From contig CAMDOA010000029.1 of assembly GCA_945903305.1 (NCBI GenBank), forward strand, positions 1 to 32,836: a DNA stretch of 32,836 nucleotides, read 5' to 3'. Position 1 is the first letter of the stretch, and every line of letters starts with the position of its first letter. The notes beneath the pieces are model-generated. The model ran no database searches and was not told the DNA's origin. It saw nothing but the letters and a program-made list of their open reading frames with translations. Position numbers and translations under genes: made by a program. The DNA is from Chitinophaga pinensis. GTDB taxonomy: Bacteria; Bacteroidota; Bacteroidia; Chitinophagales; UBA10324. Shown here piece after piece: positions 4,909 through 32,189 of this stretch.

Positions 4909-4987
4909 TTTGAAATGAAATAATTCTTCGCTGCTCTATTTTTTATTTTACTTTTAAGCAGAAATAGTATCCTCAAAAATCTTTTTT

Positions 4988-5383
4988 ATGGCTGCATATG
5001 GAATAGAAATTATCTTGAATCGTCAATTGGCCGATTGTCTTTCGGTGCCGGTTTTTATTACCGACACAGTAGGGAATCTTATTTTTTACAACGAACCCGC
5101 TGAAAAAATTCTGGGTTCACGATTTGAAGAAACCGGAGAAATGAAAGTGGAAACATGGGGCACCATATTTAAGTAGAAAGATGATGAAGGAAATTTATTA
5201 CTTCCCGAAAACCTGCCGCTTGTCAGAACACTGCGCGACCAATATCCTTATCATAAAACTTTTTGGATTGAAAGCCTGACCGGAAAATCAGAACGAATTT
5301 CTGTTACCTCGTATCCCATTATCGGACGGGCCGGCGATTTTGTTGGAGCAGTTGCCATTTTCTGGGAAGCAAGAGACTTATGA
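4988..5383 (+). pseudogene. PAS-domain protein interrupted by an in-frame amber codon
   Basis: Translation from the ATG gives a PAS-like start (VPVFITDTVGNLIFYNEPAEKILG, about residues 20-43) and reaches TAG at 5174-5176. The same frame then continues without another stop to TGA at 5381-5383, encoding the expected second half of the domain (DDEGNLLLPENLPLVRTL, FWIESLTGK, GDFVGAVAIFWEA). The full frame would give 131 codons. It overlaps the next gene's ATG by the ATGA arrangement, so the intact gene was evidently coupled to it. The amber codon therefore truncates the domain at residue 62. Options are a recent nonsense mutation, a sequencing or assembly error, or stop readthrough. No in-frame ATG restarts the second half. 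Confidence 0.75.
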
Positions 5384-21258: not shown

Positions 21259-21383
21259 TTTTAATACAATTTGTGTTTTATTAGTGTTTATCAATGGGCT
21301 TATTCGTGACCATTACTAAATAGTTTCTTTGATTATAGATTTTAAAAGGATATTTAAAGGTAATGTGACTTAATTCAATGATT

Positions 21384-21391
21384 TACTTTTG
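21384..21391 (+). promoter_or_regulatory. Putative -7 box for the MBL-rhodanese gene
   Basis: TACTTTTG matches TAnnTTTG exactly, 25 bases upstream of the ATG at 21417. Transcription from here would start after the alternative in-frame ATG at 21378, supporting 21417 as the true start. The -33 element is not obvious. Confidence 0.5.
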
Positions 21392-21416
21392 CCTCACTCA
21401 ATCAAAAAAAATTAAA

Positions 21417-22811
21417 ATGACTGTTGAACAACTTTATACCAACTGCCTGTCAGAAGCCGCCTATTTTATTACAAGTAATGGCGAAGCTGCAGTTATAGAC
21501 CCTTTGCGTGATTATCAGACTTATATTGATATGGCTGAAAAAGCAGGAGTTAAAATCAAGTATGTATTTGAAACACATTTTCATGCTGATTTTGTGAGTG
21601 GTCATATTGATTTGTCTTCAAAAACAGGCGCCCAAATTATTTATGGACCAAACGCAAAAACTGATTATACAATTTATGAAGCAAAGGATGGTGAAAAATT
21701 TAAAATAGGTAATTGTGAAATAGAAGTGCTTCACACACCAGGTCACACTCCTGAATCAAGTTGTTATTTATTGCATGATGAAGAAGGAAAACCATATTCA
21801 GTTTTTACCGGAGACACCTTATTTGTTGGAGATGTGGGTCGTCCTGATTTGTTTGGAGCAAAAATTACCAAGGAGGAATTAGCTGAAATGCTGTATGATT
21901 CCTTAAATAATAAAATTAAAAAGTTGAATGATGATGTGATTGTTTATCCTGCTCATGGACCCGGTTCATCGTGTGGTAAAAATTTAGGAAAAGAAACTTT
22001 CAGCACTATTGGTGAACAGAAAAAACTGAATTATGCATTAAAACAAATGACTCGTGAAGAGTTTATTGAAGAAATTACCTCAGGTTTATCGGCTCCTCCT
22101 GCCTATTTTCCTTTAAATGCGCAGATTAATAAAAATGGGTATTCTCCTTTAGACGAAGTTATGTCACGAAATTCAAAAGCATTAGAAGTTGTGGAATTTG
22201 AAAAGGAAATTAATAATGGTGCGTTGGTATTGGATACCAGAAATCCGGAAGAATTTGAAAATGGATTTGTGAAAGGTGCAATTAATATTGGTTTAAACGG
22301 CCGATTTGCTGAATGGGTTGGAACCTTAATAGCTATTAATCAACCACTACTGCTTATTACCTCTAAAGGAAAAGAAGAAGAAACTATTTTAAGGCTGGCG
22401 CGCGTTGGGTATGAAAATGTGAAAGGTTATTTAAGTGGTGGTTATAACACCTGGATGAACGCCGGAAAACCTTTAGATATGGTTTTAACCATTGATGCTG
22501 AAGAATTTGAATTGGATCTGAAACATGAAAAAGATATTATAGTGGTTGATGTACGAAAAGAATCAGAATACGATGCCGGACATATTGAAAATGCAGAGAA
22601 TTGTGTGTTGCAAAACTTTGATGCTTCTATTTCAGATTTAAATTCTTCTGACCGTTTATATATTCATTGTCAGGGAGGCTATCGCAGCATGATTGCCGCG
22701 TCAATTTTAAAAAGAAAAGGTTTTGATATTGTAAAAAATATAAAAGGCGGTTATTTAGAAATAGTTAAACAGGGAATTCCTGTTGAAATATCGCAACCTT
22801 CTTTAAATTAA
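21417..22811 (+). CDS. MBL-fold / double rhodanese protein (persulfide-dioxygenase-like)
   Basis: The start at 21417 gives MTVEQLYTNCLSEAAYFI, the usual family N-terminus (464 residues). The MBL domain (1-245) has THFHADFVSGH (53-63), H110 in HTPGHTPESSCY, D133 in TGDTLFVGDVGRPD and H180 in YPAHGPGS, an ETHE1-like iron-site pattern. Two rhodanese domains follow. The first (about 260-355) has LLLITSKGKEEET and no active-site Cys. The second (about 365-455) has Cys418 in IHCQGGYRS and is probably active. The expected role is sulfide/persulfide handling: oxidation of glutathione or low-molecular persulfide and sulfur transfer. The gene is monocistronic. Confidence 0.92.
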   Translation: MTVEQLYTNCLSEAAYFITSNGEAAVIDPLRDYQTYIDMAEKAGVKIKYVFETHFHADFVSGHIDLSSKTGAQIIYGPNAKTDYTIYEAKDGEKFKIGNCEIEVLHTPGHTPESSCYLLHDEEGKPYSVFTGDTLFVGDVGRPDLFGAKITKEELAEMLYDSLNNKIKKLNDDVIVYPAHGPGSSCGKNLGKETFSTIGEQKKLNYALKQMTREEFIEEITSGLSAPPAYFPLNAQINKNGYSPLDEVMSRNSKALEVVEFEKEINNGALVLDTRNPEEFENGFVKGAINIGLNGRFAEWVGTLIAINQPLLLITSKGKEEETILRLARVGYENVKGYLSGGYNTWMNAGKPLDMVLTIDAEEFELDLKHEKDIIVVDVRKESEYDAGHIENAENCVLQNFDASISDLNSSDRLYIHCQGGYRSMIAASILKRKGFDIVKNIKGGYLEIVKQGIPVEISQPSLN

Positions 22812-23304
22812 AAAATTAAAAAAACATTCTTTCGGCGGCTATTTTTTTTAGAAGTGTAAATTGAAATTTATTTTTTACTCTCCTTATCAACAGTATAAAT
22901 AATTAATTAAAAAATAAAAATTATTATTATAAACTATTAAGGGTGTGAATTGGTGTATAAAATTTTTTTACCGATGACACAAACTCAGTTACCACCATTT
23001 TAATAACACTATTCACATTTTCATCCACAAACAAATCCCCTGTTTATCAATCATTCATCCGGTTTATAAACAAAAAATAAATAACCATTTTTTAAAGAAA
23101 TATTAATAAGTTAATCCAAACAAGGTTTTATATAATTTGTTGTTGTGTGGGTTTATTCACAACAGTTAACCACACCATTAAACATCAATTTTATAACTAA
23201 GAAGTTTTAGTGGTTTTTTCGTTGGTTTACTAACAGGTACTAACATTATTTTCGTTTGATGTTGGTAGTTTAAATACACACTTTTAAAGTGTTTCACAGT
23301 TTTT
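22812..23304. other. Long AT-rich gap between converging genes; candidate oriC-like element
   Basis: No gene is visible. Both flanking genes point into this 493-base region, so it is not needed as a promoter. It has a very AT-rich tract (22884-22940) and several sequences near the DnaA box TTATNCACA: an exact TTATTCACA at 23153-23161, and one-mismatch copies TTATCAACA (22884-22892), CTATTCACA (23009-23017), TCATCCACA (23021-23029), TTAACCACA (23166-23174) and, on the minus strand, TTATACACC (22952-22960). Inverted repeats lie at 23238-23267 and 23278-23292. This resembles a replication origin (DUE plus boxes), but AT-rich DNA produces such matches by chance, so the call is tentative. Confidence 0.35.
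23278..23292 (-). terminator. Weak hairpin downstream of meaB
   Basis: ACACTTT and AAAGTGT flank one base, 12 bases beyond the meaB stop on the minus strand. The downstream T run is poor, so it may be a weak terminator or part of the adjacent AT-rich element. Confidence 0.3.
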
Positions 23305-24216
23305 TTAATCTAATATTTTCCCTGAAACAAACTGATACAGATTAAAATTTTTCTTCTTCATTTCCTTTTTAATATCAACTAATAATTGAGCGCGGTTAAT
23401 GTGCTTGGTTTTATGATTTATAATCAATTGAAGCGCCTTTTCTGCCATTAATAAATTTTTACGCTCGTTGTGATTGGCGCCGGCAAAATGATTTTGAATT
23501 TGTTGAATCAGTTCATCAACACCTTCACCATTTATGGCTATGGTTTTAATAACAGGAATTTGCCACTCAGTATCTGATTTTTCATGAACCAGTAACTCTA
23601 AATTTTTTACAAAACGATTCACATCTGCTCTATCAGCTTTGTTTACTACAAAAATGTCGGCAATTTCCATTAAACCCGCTTTCATGGTTTGCACTTCATC
23701 ACCAGCTTCAGGAACCAAAACAACCACAGTAGTATCAGCAAGCCCGGCAATCTCTACTTCGCTTTGACCCACACCAACAGTTTCAATAATAATAAAATCA
23801 AAAGCAGATGCCCGAAGCAAATCAGTTACTTCAATAATTTTTTCAGCCAGTCCGCCAAGAGCGCCGCGAGTAGCTAAGCTTCTGATAAAAATATTTTTGT
23901 CGTTAAAATGTTCGCTTAACCTTATTCTGTCACCAAGCAATGAACCAAAATTAAATGGAGAAGTAGGGTCAACGGCAATAACTGCTGTTTTTTTCCCTTG
24001 TGCCGAAAGGTTTTTTAATAAAACATTTACCAATGAGCTTTTTCCGGCGCCGGGAGGCCCGGTAAAACCAATAACCGGAATCTGATAATTAATAGTCAGT
24101 TGATTTAAAAGTTGGTGACCAACCTCCGAATTATTTTCAACCAAACTGATGGCACGCGCAAGCGCTTTAAAATTTCCGATGTGAATTTGCGCCAATAATT
24201 TTTCGGATTGATTCAT
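23305..24216 (-). CDS. meaB: Methylmalonyl-CoA mutase-associated GTPase MeaB
   Basis: This 303-residue SIMIBI-class GTPase has the P-loop GPPGAGKS (53-60), VDPTSPF (82-88), switch II ETVGVGQSE (145-153) and NKAD (192-195). MeaB (also called ArgK/YgfD) loads and protects adenosylcobalamin in methylmalonyl-CoA mutase, using GTP hydrolysis for gating. It is a cytosolic dimer. The gene starts 14 bases after the anti-sigma gene, so it appears to be the third cistron of a sigma/anti-sigma operon; the mutase itself is not in the window. Confidence 0.94.
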   Translation of the reverse strand: MNQSEKLLAQIHIGNFKALARAISLVENNSEVGHQLLNQLTINYQIPVIGFTGPPGAGKSSLVNVLLKNLSAQGKKTAVIAVDPTSPFNFGSLLGDRIRLSEHFNDKNIFIRSLATRGALGGLAEKIIEVTDLLRASAFDFIIIETVGVGQSEVEIAGLADTTVVVLVPEAGDEVQTMKAGLMEIADIFVVNKADRADVNRFVKNLELLVHEKSDTEWQIPVIKTIAINGEGVDELIQQIQNHFAGANHNERKNLLMAEKALQLIINHKTKHINRAQLLVDIKKEMKKKNFNLYQFVSGKILD

Positions 24217-27836: not shown

Positions 27837-30800
27837 TCACAGCGTCCGCTTCACCTCAACCTCTTCGTATCCCTCAATCACATCACCGGTTTTAATATCG
27901 TTGTAATTTTTAATGGTGATACCACACTCAAATCCGGTGGCCACATCTTTCACATCATCTTTAAATCGCTTGAGCGAAGCCAGTTCTCCCGTGAAAATTA
28001 CGATACCATCACGTACAATGTGAATCTTGCTGTGTCGGTTAATTTTTCCATCGGTTACAAAACATCCTGCCACAGCACCAACTTTCGGAATCTTAAATAC
28101 ATCACGCACTTCAACATTACATACTGCACGCTCTTCCACTTTTGGTTCCAGCATACCTTCCATGGCACCCTTGATTTCTTCAATGGCATCGTAGATAATG
28201 GAGTACATGCGGATTTCAATATTTTCTTTCTCAGCCAACTTGCGCGCCTGCAACGATGGGCGAACCTGGAACCCGATGATGATGGCATCTGATGCAGAAG
28301 CGAGCAACACATCCGATTCGGTAATTTGTCCCACGGCACGATACACCACATTCACATGAACTTCGGCAACCGATAATTTTTGCAATGAATCGGTTAATGC
28401 TTCCACCGAACCATCAAAGTCGGCCTTGATAATTACATTCAACTCCTTGAAATTACCCAGCGCTAAGCGGCGACCAATTTCATCAAGCGTAATATGTTTC
28501 TTGGTTCTGATTCCCTGCTCGCGCAAAATTTGTGAGCGCTTGGTTGCTACTTGTTTTGCTTCTTGTTCATCTTCGAACGCACGAACTTTTTCACCGGCTT
28601 GCGGCGCACCATCTAATCCTAATACTAAAACCGGACTAGCAGGCGGAGCAACGGTAATTTTATTTCCGCGCTCATCATACATCGCCTTCACTCTTCCAGA
28701 ATTTGCACCGGCAACAATTATATCACCATGACGAAGAGTTCCTTCCTGCACCAATACGGTTGATACATATCCGCGACCTTTATCTAATGATGCTTCTATC
28801 ACCGAACCGATTGCGGGCTTATCAGGATTTGCTTTCAATTCCAACACATCGGCCTCAATTAAAATTTTCTCTAACAACAATTGAACATTGGTTCCTGCCT
28901 TTGCTGATATTTCCTGCGACTGAAATTTCCCCCCCCAGTCTTCCACCAAAATATTCATGTTCGCCAATTGGCTGCGCACTTTTTCAGCATCAGCACCTGG
29001 CTTATCCATTTTATTAAAAGCAAAAATCATTGGAACACCTGCTGCTTGTGCGTGACTGATGGCTTCCTTTGTTTGTGGCATCACACTATCATCTGCTGCA
29101 ATTACGATAACAACAATGTCGGTAATTTTTGCTCCGCGTGCACGCATGGCGGTAAACGCTTCGTGACCCGGAGTATCAAGGAAAGTAATTTTTCGTTTAT
29201 CGGCAAGTTCCACTTCATAAGCACCAATGTGCTGAGTGATTCCTCCTTTTTCTCCAGCCACCACATTCGCGCTTCTGATATAATCGAGCAACGATGTTTT
29301 ACCATGATCCACATGTCCCATGATGGTAACGATTGGTGGGCGCGGTTTTAAATCTTCGGGTTCATCTACAAACTCAGCTTGTTCTTCCTGCGCTTCCACG
29401 CCAATGAACTCAGCTTCAAACCCAAATTCATGTGTCACCAATTCAATAATCTCGGCATCCAATCGCTGATTGATGGAAACGAAAATTCCGAGGTTCATGC
29501 AATTTTTTATAACATCAGTAACCGATACGCTTAATAAACTTGCTAATTCTGAAACAGAAATAAATTCGGTGAGCTGAATTTTTTTTGCTCCGCCTTCAAC
29601 ATTCATTTCTTCGGCAGCAACATCTCTTTTCAGTTTGCGCAATTTTGTTTTCGCGCCCTTGCCACCCTTCACACCATGCTGACCAAGGCGCGAAAGTGTT
29701 GCTTTAATTTTATCCTGAATTTCTTTTTGCGAAACTTCTTGTGGTACATCGGGTGGTTTAACACCTCGGTTACGATCGCTTCGTCCTCTGTCGCTTCCAC
29801 CTCTGTTATCAGTTCCTCTATTGTTATCGCGACGCGGGGGTTGTGATGTTGGTGGGGTGAATGGCCTGCGCTCACCGGGTTTTGGTGGAGGAGCTGTGCC
29901 TATTCCACCGCCAGTTGCGCTCGGTGCTGGCTTATTAGTTGGTCCTTGTTCTGAACTATAAATTCTTTTACGCTTCCGTTTTTCGCGGTCACCTTTTATA
30001 ATATCGGAGTAATCGGGCTTCTTATCTTTTACTGATCCTAAATCAATTTTACCCATAACAACCGGGCCCGTTAAAACCGAGAATTGTGTTTTCCGTGTCG
30101 GTTGATTGGGGTCTTCGGGTGTTGTAGAATCAGCAACATCTGCGGCGGGTTCTTCAGGAGGCTTTTTTGTTGGCGGAGCTTTCGGTTTTGGAGCTTCAGC
30201 TACAGGGGGCTCAGCCGGTTTTACATCTTCAACAACCGGAACATCTTCTTTCTTCTTTCCTTTTTTAGCAGCTACTTTTGGGGCTGCTTTTTTCTTTCCA
30301 CGATCATCGGGAGGTAGCTCTGCGGGCAATTCTATTTTACCAATAATTTTTGGCCCCTCAACTTTATCTGCCTTGCCCCGCCTGATAATTTTTTCTGCGG
30401 GCTTCTCTTCTTCTTTTGCTTTCTCTGTTTTTTTCTCTATAGGTTTTTCTACAACCTTCTCCGTCTTTTTCTCCGCAACTTTTTCTACCGGCTTCTCAAT
30501 AATTTTTTCAACGGGTTTTTCAACTTTTTTTTCTGAAATTGGTTCTTCGACTTTTTTCTTTTCTGCGGGTTTTGCAACCGGCGATTTAGAATTTTTAATT
30601 AAAACCTCTTCGGCCTGATCTTCTTTCTCTTTTGAAATTTGGGCGGCACGAACTTCTTTCTCCTCTGTTTTATCTTTTACAGGTGCAGTCGCAGCCTTTA
30701 TTCCCAGGCTAATTTTATCAGCCTGAATTTTTTCAGTTTTATCTTTTTGAAATTCGCGCAGCAATGCTTCGTACATCTCATTGGTGATTTTGGTGGTTGG

Positions 30801-30917
30801 TTTATTTTCCACCTTAAAACCTTTGATGTTCAAATGATCAAAGAGGTGATTTAAACCCACATTGAGTTCACGAGCTACTGCTGCTATCCGTTTTTCTCCG
30901 GTTGTTATTTCTGACAT
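27837..30917 (-). CDS. infB: Translation initiation factor IF-2
   Basis: This 1026-residue GTPase brings fMet-tRNA to the 30S subunit. Residues 1-60 form an IF2_N-like domain. About 60-430 is low complexity: Lys/Glu/Pro-rich with repeated VEKPVEK-type units (130-170), then Pro-rich, then an RG/RD-rich stretch (350-386). A second IF2_N motif lies at about 452-478. The G domain has GHVDHGKT (534-541), DTPGH (581-585) and NKMD (635-638), followed by domains II-IV. The length is typical for Bacteroidota. It starts 9 bases after the nusA stop and ends at a strong terminator. Confidence 0.97.
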
Positions 30918-30926
30918 TCAGTTTTA

Positions 30927-32189
30927 TTATTCTGCTTTTTTCTTTTCGTCATCAAATTCTGTTTTCAGAATCCGGATAACTTCTTTTACTGTTTCTTCTT
31001 CTAAATCAGAGCGGCGCACCAATTCATCGGCGTTCAATTCCAACACGCTTCTGGCGGTATCGCACCCGATTGCTTTTAATTCATCAATGATCCAACTTTC
31101 AATTTCATCTGAAAATTCATCTAAGTCAATATCAAAATCTTCACCTTCATCCATGGTATCGCGGAACACATCAATGCTCAACCCGGTAATGCGGCCGGCC
31201 AAACGAATGTTCACGCCACCGCGACCAATTGCTAACGAAACTTGGTCGGGTTTCAGATAAACCGACACGCTTTTTTTCTCTTCATTAATTTCCATTGAAG
31301 TGATTTTTGCAGGTGTTAAAGCACGCGCAATCATCAGCTGAATATTATTAGTGTAGTTGATAATATCAATGTTTTCATTTTTCAATTCGCGAACAATTCC
31401 ATGTATCCGCGAACCCTTCATGCCCACACAAGCACCAACCGGATCTACTCTGTCGTCATAAGACTCAACTGCAACCTTGGCTCTTTCACCGGGCTCACGA
31501 ACTATTTTTTTAATGATAATTAAGCCATCCATAATTTCAGGAACTTCCTGCTCTAACAGTTTTGCCAGAAACGAAGGGTCGGTACGCGAGAGAATCACCA
31601 TCGGCGCATTATTTTTTAATTCAACTGCTTTTAAAACAGCGCGAACATTATCGCCTTTCTTAAAAAAGTCAGCAGGAATTTGTTCGGTCTTTGGAAGAAT
31701 AAGTTCATTTCCATCATCGTCAATCAACAAAGTTTCCCTCTTCCAGGTTTGATATACCTCTCCACTGATAATTTCACCAATACGGTCAGAGTATTTTTTA
31801 AACAGCTCATCTTTTTCTAATTCAGAAACGCGGCCAGCAAGAGTTTGGCGCGCTGAAAGAATTGCCCTACGACCAAAAGAGCCCATCTTAATTTCTTCAA
31901 TTGCCTCTTCTCCCACCTGAAAATCAGGTTCAATTTTTTGTGCATCAGAAAGCGAAATTTGTTTAACCGGATCTTCAACAGCCCCGTCTTCAACAATATC
32001 GCGACGATGCCATATTTCCAAATCACCTTTCTCGGTATTTACAATGATGTCAAAGTTTTCATCCGACAAATATTTTTTACGAATAAGCGTGCGGAATACA
32101 TCTTCAAGCACCTTCATCATTGTGGGGCGGTCAATATTCTTTTGTTCTTTGAATTCTGAGAAGGATTCAATCAGTTCTATGTTGTTCAT
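30927..32189 (-). CDS. nusA: Transcription termination/antitermination factor NusA
   Basis: The 420-residue protein has the RNA-polymerase-binding N-terminal domain (1-125), an S1 domain (about 136-200, IGEIISGEVYQ), KH1 (VGACVGMKGSRI, 251-262) and KH2 (AIGRGGVNIRLA, 320-331). A single acidic C-terminal repeat region (about 350-420, IIDELKAIGCDTA, LNADELVRRSDL) follows. This form is shorter than the 495-residue E. coli protein, with one C-terminal repeat rather than two. NusA modulates pausing, intrinsic termination and antitermination. It lies between rimP (18-base gap) and infB (9-base gap). Confidence 0.97.
   Translation of the reverse strand: MNNIELIESFSEFKEQKNIDRPTMMKVLEDVFRTLIRKKYLSDENFDIIVNTEKGDLEIWHRRDIVEDGAVEDPVKQISLSDAQKIEPDFQVGEEAIEEIKMGSFGRRAILSARQTLAGRVSELEKDELFKKYSDRIGEIISGEVYQTWKRETLLIDDDGNELILPKTEQIPADFFKKGDNVRAVLKAVELKNNAPMVILSRTDPSFLAKLLEQEVPEIMDGLIIIKKIVREPGERAKVAVESYDDRVDPVGACVGMKGSRIHGIVRELKNENIDIINYTNNIQLMIARALTPAKITSMEINEEKKSVSVYLKPDQVSLAIGRGGVNIRLAGRITGLSIDVFRDTMDEGEDFDIDLDEFSDEIESWIIDELKAIGCDTARSVLELNADELVRRSDLEEETVKEVIRILKTEFDDEKKKAE

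Follow-up and report, generated by a model that had tools for sequence, protein, structure and literature searches.

The gap and its neighbours

The window, the whole 32,836-nucleotide stretch of DNA analysed here, contains a non-coding gap at 22812–23304, delimited by the stop codons of two converging open reading frames (ORFs). Its left neighbour, on the plus strand (21378–22811), encodes a protein with a metallo-beta-lactamase (MBL) fold and rhodanese domains (Pfam PF00753 and PF00581). Its right neighbour, on the minus strand (23305–24216), encodes MeaB, the methylmalonyl-CoA mutase-associated GTPase (PF03308). The gap is 493 bases long, with a GC content of 24.7%. An earlier note on this DNA had called it the longest gap in the window and had pointed to an almost pure AT tract within it, and both descriptions hold. 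Among gaps between ORFs of at least 80 amino acids the runner-up (4909–5379) measures 471 bases, and 40 consecutive bases of pure A/T lie at 22894–22933. This run, partly invariant in the six genomes of the genus, is the likely unwinding region, and its position places an AT-rich tract beside DnaA boxes, as looked for in a chromosomal replication origin (oriC).

Elsewhere in the window, the interval 28001–31000 has markedly less A than T on the plus strand and a GC content above that of the remaining sequence; most of it falls inside one long minus-strand ORF (27837–30917).

Clustering of DnaA boxes

Seven 9-mers resembling the DnaA box TTATNCACA are found in the gap, six of them oriented rightward. 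One is exact (TTATTCACA, 23153–23161, plus strand), as the earlier note had stated, and is kept in congener G004 though not in all congeners. The others carry one mismatch each; the note had counted five of these, and there are six. On the plus strand they comprise TTATCAACA (22884–22892), left of the AT tract, CTATTCACA (23009–23017), identical in five of the six genus genomes, TCATCCACA (23021–23029), variable among congeners, TTATAAACA (23064–23072), identical in five of the six and represented by an exact TTATTCACA in the sixth, and TTAACCACA (23166–23174), identified by the box scan together with congener comparison. The remaining one, TTATACACC (22952–22960), lies on the minus strand.

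The window as a whole shows no enrichment (33 boxes observed against 44.7 expected from shuffles), so the signal lies in their clustering within the gap. We scanned 417,826 intervals of 493 bases across contigs C1, C2 and C3 and the window, which together cover 419,762 of the genome's 3,117,621 bases. At least seven boxes occurred in 203 of these intervals, all overlapping the gap, and the best interval elsewhere held five. The possibility that similar clusters might be common, which would have spoken against an origin, is thus not borne out in the 420 kb scanned. Dinucleotide shuffling of the gap (2000 replicates) gave a mean of 1.31 boxes and a probability of 0.0005 for seven or more, and the reversed box pattern occurs once in the gap; by both scan and shuffles the cluster goes beyond chance. 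A whole-genome list of exact boxes contains other close pairs, and three of these, when inspected, had three to four boxes with at most one mismatch within about 500 bases each. The corresponding region of congeners contains fewer boxes: three in G003, four in G001 and four in G002, the last including one exact box on each strand.

A conserved core with split repeats

The core of the gap (22919–22960) combines the AT tract, split TAATA/TAATAATAA repeats, a GGG triplet and tandem DnaA boxes. Its DnaA-trio-like region (22919–22940, plus strand), which on the box strand, in the direction leading away from the boxes, reads TTAATAGTTTATAATAATAATT, is present in 15 of 16 family genomes and consists of two TAATA blocks separated by about one helical turn. 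Between these AT repeats and the boxes lies the GGG (22941–22943), a short GC cluster that is C/G-rich in most relatives. The box proximal to the repeats, CAATTCACA (22944–22952, minus strand), is weak, with two mismatches to TTATNCACA, and reads AATCCACA in several relatives. The distal box of the tandem pair is TTATACACC, separated from the first trio-like triplet by an 11-base spacer that includes the GC triplet and most of the weak second box.

The rule given for the basal unwinding system (BUS) has three parts: a DnaA box carrying no more than two mismatches, a spacer no longer than 16 bases (peak 10–13) and three or more triplets whose middle base on the trio strand is A (PMC8287927). 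Such an arrangement exists here, with TTATACACC at 22952–22960, a spacer of 11 and the required middle base in the first three triplets. The rule is permissive: when three triplets are demanded, ordinary sequence yields about 0.65 matches in every 493 bases and the gap yields three, so it is conservation that carries the argument. With five in-phase triplets the gap contains no match. The core also lacks the DnaA-trio consensus 3'-GAT-5' in one continuous phase: its triplets run AAT, TAT and CAA and then slip by one base. Closer 3'-GAT-like trios are present in G102 and G080.

The core resembles the BUS oriC of Bacillus subtilis (PMC8287927, PMC6669920) in several respects: its boxes are in tandem and the distal one is the better, the 11-base spacer falls within the published peak of 10–13, and after a GC-rich triplet come AT repeats, their first three triplets with the required middle base, and then an A/T run. 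It differs in its repeats, which form two TAATA blocks lying about ten bases apart and offset by one base, taking the triplets out of a single phase; its boxes overlap by one base, the proximal one being weak, and dnaA is not adjacent. The oriC of Escherichia coli lies apart from dnaA, and its boxes are arrayed next to an AT-rich unwinding region. The gap shares this adjacency and the distance from dnaA, whereas the order and spacing of its boxes are different.

Conservation in the genus, family and order

Conservation of the gap in relatives, a check that the earlier note had proposed, was found throughout the genus. The gap DNA is matched in all five congeners, most of the non-coding part at 67–81% identity, and their non-coding stretch aligns over its full length and hardly varies across the AT repeats, the GC triplet and the tandem boxes. 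With up to three mismatches allowed, each of the six genus genomes contains the core pattern exactly once. Across the order it matches 10 of 298 genomes, compared with 1 of 298 for a reversed control, and the non-genus matches among the ten belong to two other genera of the family and to two genomes of another family. When a looser pattern was combined with inspection upstream of nadA, the core was recognised in every family genome but G014 (15 of 16). As looked for in an oriC, it occurs once per genome (6 of 6 in the genus) and is conserved in relatives (15 of 16 in the family).

The neighbouring gene is less constant. The core adjoins MeaB in the window's genus and in G010, and nadA in eight other family genomes. 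The looser pattern gave 12 matches, of which eight stand directly upstream of nadA and one, in G077, lies at a contig end next to a gene that by eye looks like endonuclease III; the matches in G014, G043:C73 and G055:C27 look like chance and were set aside. In two MAG contigs labelled Cyclobacteriaceae and Cytophagales, the core sits in an AT-rich stretch with DnaA boxes.

The nadA-side element and the history of the locus

In other genera the core stands just upstream of nadA, as in the eight genomes of the looser search. A survey of the 610 bases upstream of nadA in 27 loci counted 136 boxes, compared with 35 for the reversed pattern. Loci were available for 30 of 55 nadA matches, and three of these lacked upstream sequence or the motif. 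Two of the 27, those of G029 and G067, contain no boxes. The 15 loci scored with a core in this survey include chance matches, about 10 being convincing by eye, and the survey missed G032. The near-complete relative G034, from the same order, illustrates the arrangement: nadA begins near position 1,330,561, and just upstream lie tandem boxes, a GC spacer and TTAATAGTAATAGG.

The gap's left-hand neighbour, the MBL-rhodanese gene, also lies near the nadA-side core in three genomes, at about 4 kb in G012, 10 kb in G011 and 20 kb in G008, and two of the three keep its relative orientation. Given this proximity in three genera, the gap looks like the same locus after the loss of nadA. Searches did not find nadA in G000, G001, G002 or G004 (genomes 93–99% complete), and G003 and G005 have only a divergent nadA, located elsewhere. 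The simplest account, as judged from sequence, is that the window's genus lost nadA together with the intervening DNA and that the core was left in place. The gap and the nadA-side element (G034, G032, G013, G008, G043 and others) would then share the core, the DnaA boxes and, in three genera, a nearby MBL-rhodanese gene, and would differ in the absence of nadA and the presence of MeaB as right-hand neighbour in the window's genus. Among the titles and abstract openings searched, in which subscription journals are thinly covered, no oriC of this group of bacteria beside nadA was found.

Two further observations concern this locus. The nadA pattern in G000 and its relatives represents a change in NAD synthesis in the window's genus. 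In G005, G004 and G002 an extra stretch of about 400 bases, missing from the window, lies between the MBL-rhodanese gene and the core, and by eye it contains a small lipoprotein-like ORF on the strand opposite the MBL gene.

GC skew

The earlier note had suggested looking for a cumulative GC-skew minimum at the gap. The genome is a draft of 138 contigs in which the skew changes sign within the three largest, and throughout the genus skew is weak and flips sign within contigs, so it cannot decide the matter there. AT/GC bias correlations in Bacteroidetes are reported to be unusually variable (PMC5291525); this is consistent with the weak skew seen here and proves nothing about this locus.

G034 consists of one 2.85-Mb contig and a 4-kb contig, and its skew, sampled 21 times, is negative in all 10 samples before 1.30 Mb, positive in all 10 at 1.43–2.73 Mb and negative at 2.84 Mb. 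The local cumulative-skew minimum, at 1,345,432, is 15 kb from the nadA-side element. In G032:C13 skew is mostly negative up to about 600 kb and has turned positive by about 710 kb; nadA lies within this interval, at 682 kb. The minimum of G013:C8 falls in the 10-kb bin containing the core, and that of G055:C10 about 19 kb from it. At the core, four of the eight contigs tested lack a skew minimum (G003:C3, G011:C8, G008:C10 and G012:C70). G003:C3, which is 224 kb long and comes from the only congener tested, has if anything a weak skew maximum there.

Inverted repeats

The two inverted repeats that the earlier note had placed near the right end of the gap both exist. The stem-loop at 23238–23267, TACTAACATTA-(8)-TGATGTTGGTA, is kept in all six genus genomes, with 92% of cells paired across the six species, and 3 of the 11 pairs in its consensus have changed on both sides. 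The palindrome ACACTTTTAAAGTGT (23278–23292) is not conserved. Made up of TACTAACA and its mirror, the stem-loop may serve as another protein site or as a terminator. Another pairing proposed by a folding program, of 22944–22960 with 22999–23017, corresponds to inverted DnaA boxes.

A candidate replication origin and its alternatives

The evidence points to the gap at 22812–23304 as the chromosomal replication origin, a reading to which we assign a probability of about 0.9. The earlier note had raised it as a possibility, and it gains from the once-per-genome core, the DnaA boxes and a neighbourhood held in common with the nadA-side element, as well as from the skew minima that the best-assembled relatives show at this element. 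The case is well supported, and it is built on cross-genome sequence comparison rather than on the genome's own skew. On the other side stand the four contigs with no skew minimum at the core, the offset of about 19 kb in G055, the single exact box, the lower box counts of congeners and the permissiveness of the BUS rule. DnaA would bind the tandem boxes (22944–22960) and the box array at 23009–23174, and a DnaA filament would extend across the GGG spacer onto one strand of the TAATA/TAATAATAA repeats. The adjacent A/T run (22894–22933) would melt, and helicases loaded at the melted run would start bidirectional replication. Binding, unwinding and firing at the gap are what we infer from this arrangement. 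The element is very probably ordinary in kind, with an unexpected address far from dnaA, and its interest lies in that address and in the split repeat block.

Other functions for a box-rich gap have to be weighed against this. A control locus like E. coli datA or DARS, which titrates or recharges DnaA while oriC lies elsewhere, would account for the presence of DnaA boxes of which one is exact, and would fit the silence of the skew in the genus. Yet datA and DARS need no unwinding tract beside tandem boxes, and the gap has one; skew minima fall at the nadA-side counterpart in G034, G032 and G013, and no denser box cluster occurs in the 420 kb scanned, which together make such a locus improbable. 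The gap could instead be a former origin, its core inherited from the family's nadA-side oriC in a genus that now initiates elsewhere, as the rearranged neighbourhood, the loss of nadA and the lack, in the congener G003, of a skew minimum where the core lies would allow. Against this, the non-coding DNA remains alignable in all six species, and a core that is nearly invariant while other parts drift indicates continued selection. We regard a retired origin as very unlikely.

A third reading, to which we give scarcely any credence, is that the converging genes are separated by a small RNA, riboswitch or terminator region. The stem-loop at 23238–23267, whose pairing persists in six species through changes on both sides, would suit it, but the strongest conservation lies outside this stem-loop, in the box and AT core, and that core is common to genomes in which it stands upstream of nadA. 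Rfam gave no match up to E=1 in 22500–23600, promoter-like sites in the gap region show no excess over shuffles, and the single terminator-like site falls inside the MeaB reading frame. The small-RNA alternative offered by the earlier note gains nothing from these searches, since Rfam is silent and the pairing outside the one small stem-loop is that of mirrored DnaA boxes.

A broader proposal can be made, which we put forward tentatively and at somewhat less than even odds. Throughout this order of Bacteroidota, oriC may be anchored beside nadA rather than dnaA and built on a split DnaA-trio module, in which two TAATA blocks one helical turn apart follow a GC triplet and overlapping tandem boxes; the origin would have stayed in place as the window's genus lost nadA. 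Were this so, DnaA may grip single-stranded DNA in two separated steps and not along one continuous triplet track. The core offers a defined substrate for asking whether the Bacillus unwinding module works in split form in Bacteroidota. Origins of uncultured Bacteroidota are hard to locate where, as here, dnaA is not adjacent and skew is weak. The conserved core, with nadA as a landmark gene, could allow them to be located even in draft genomes, and estimating growth rates from the read depth of metagenomes depends on knowing such positions.

Other DnaA-box sites in the genome

The genome has a single dnaA, on contig C3 and thus not on the contig of the gap. Its product carries the usual box-binding signature intact (GRDHSTV). 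The dnaA neighbourhood was considered as an origin and rejected, as the dnaA contig has no cluster of at least five boxes. Tandem exact DnaA boxes, TTATTCACAAATTATACACA, lie at G000:C27:13520–13539, about 100 bases upstream of a gene for a ParA/Soj-like ATPase. All six genus genomes have these 20 bases unchanged; they were not found as such in G010 or G011. As a rival origin the pair was set aside, with only four boxes in about 466 bases, and it is better read as promoter control: it overlaps a sequence resembling the -7 promoter element of Bacteroidota, so that parA may be under DnaA control.
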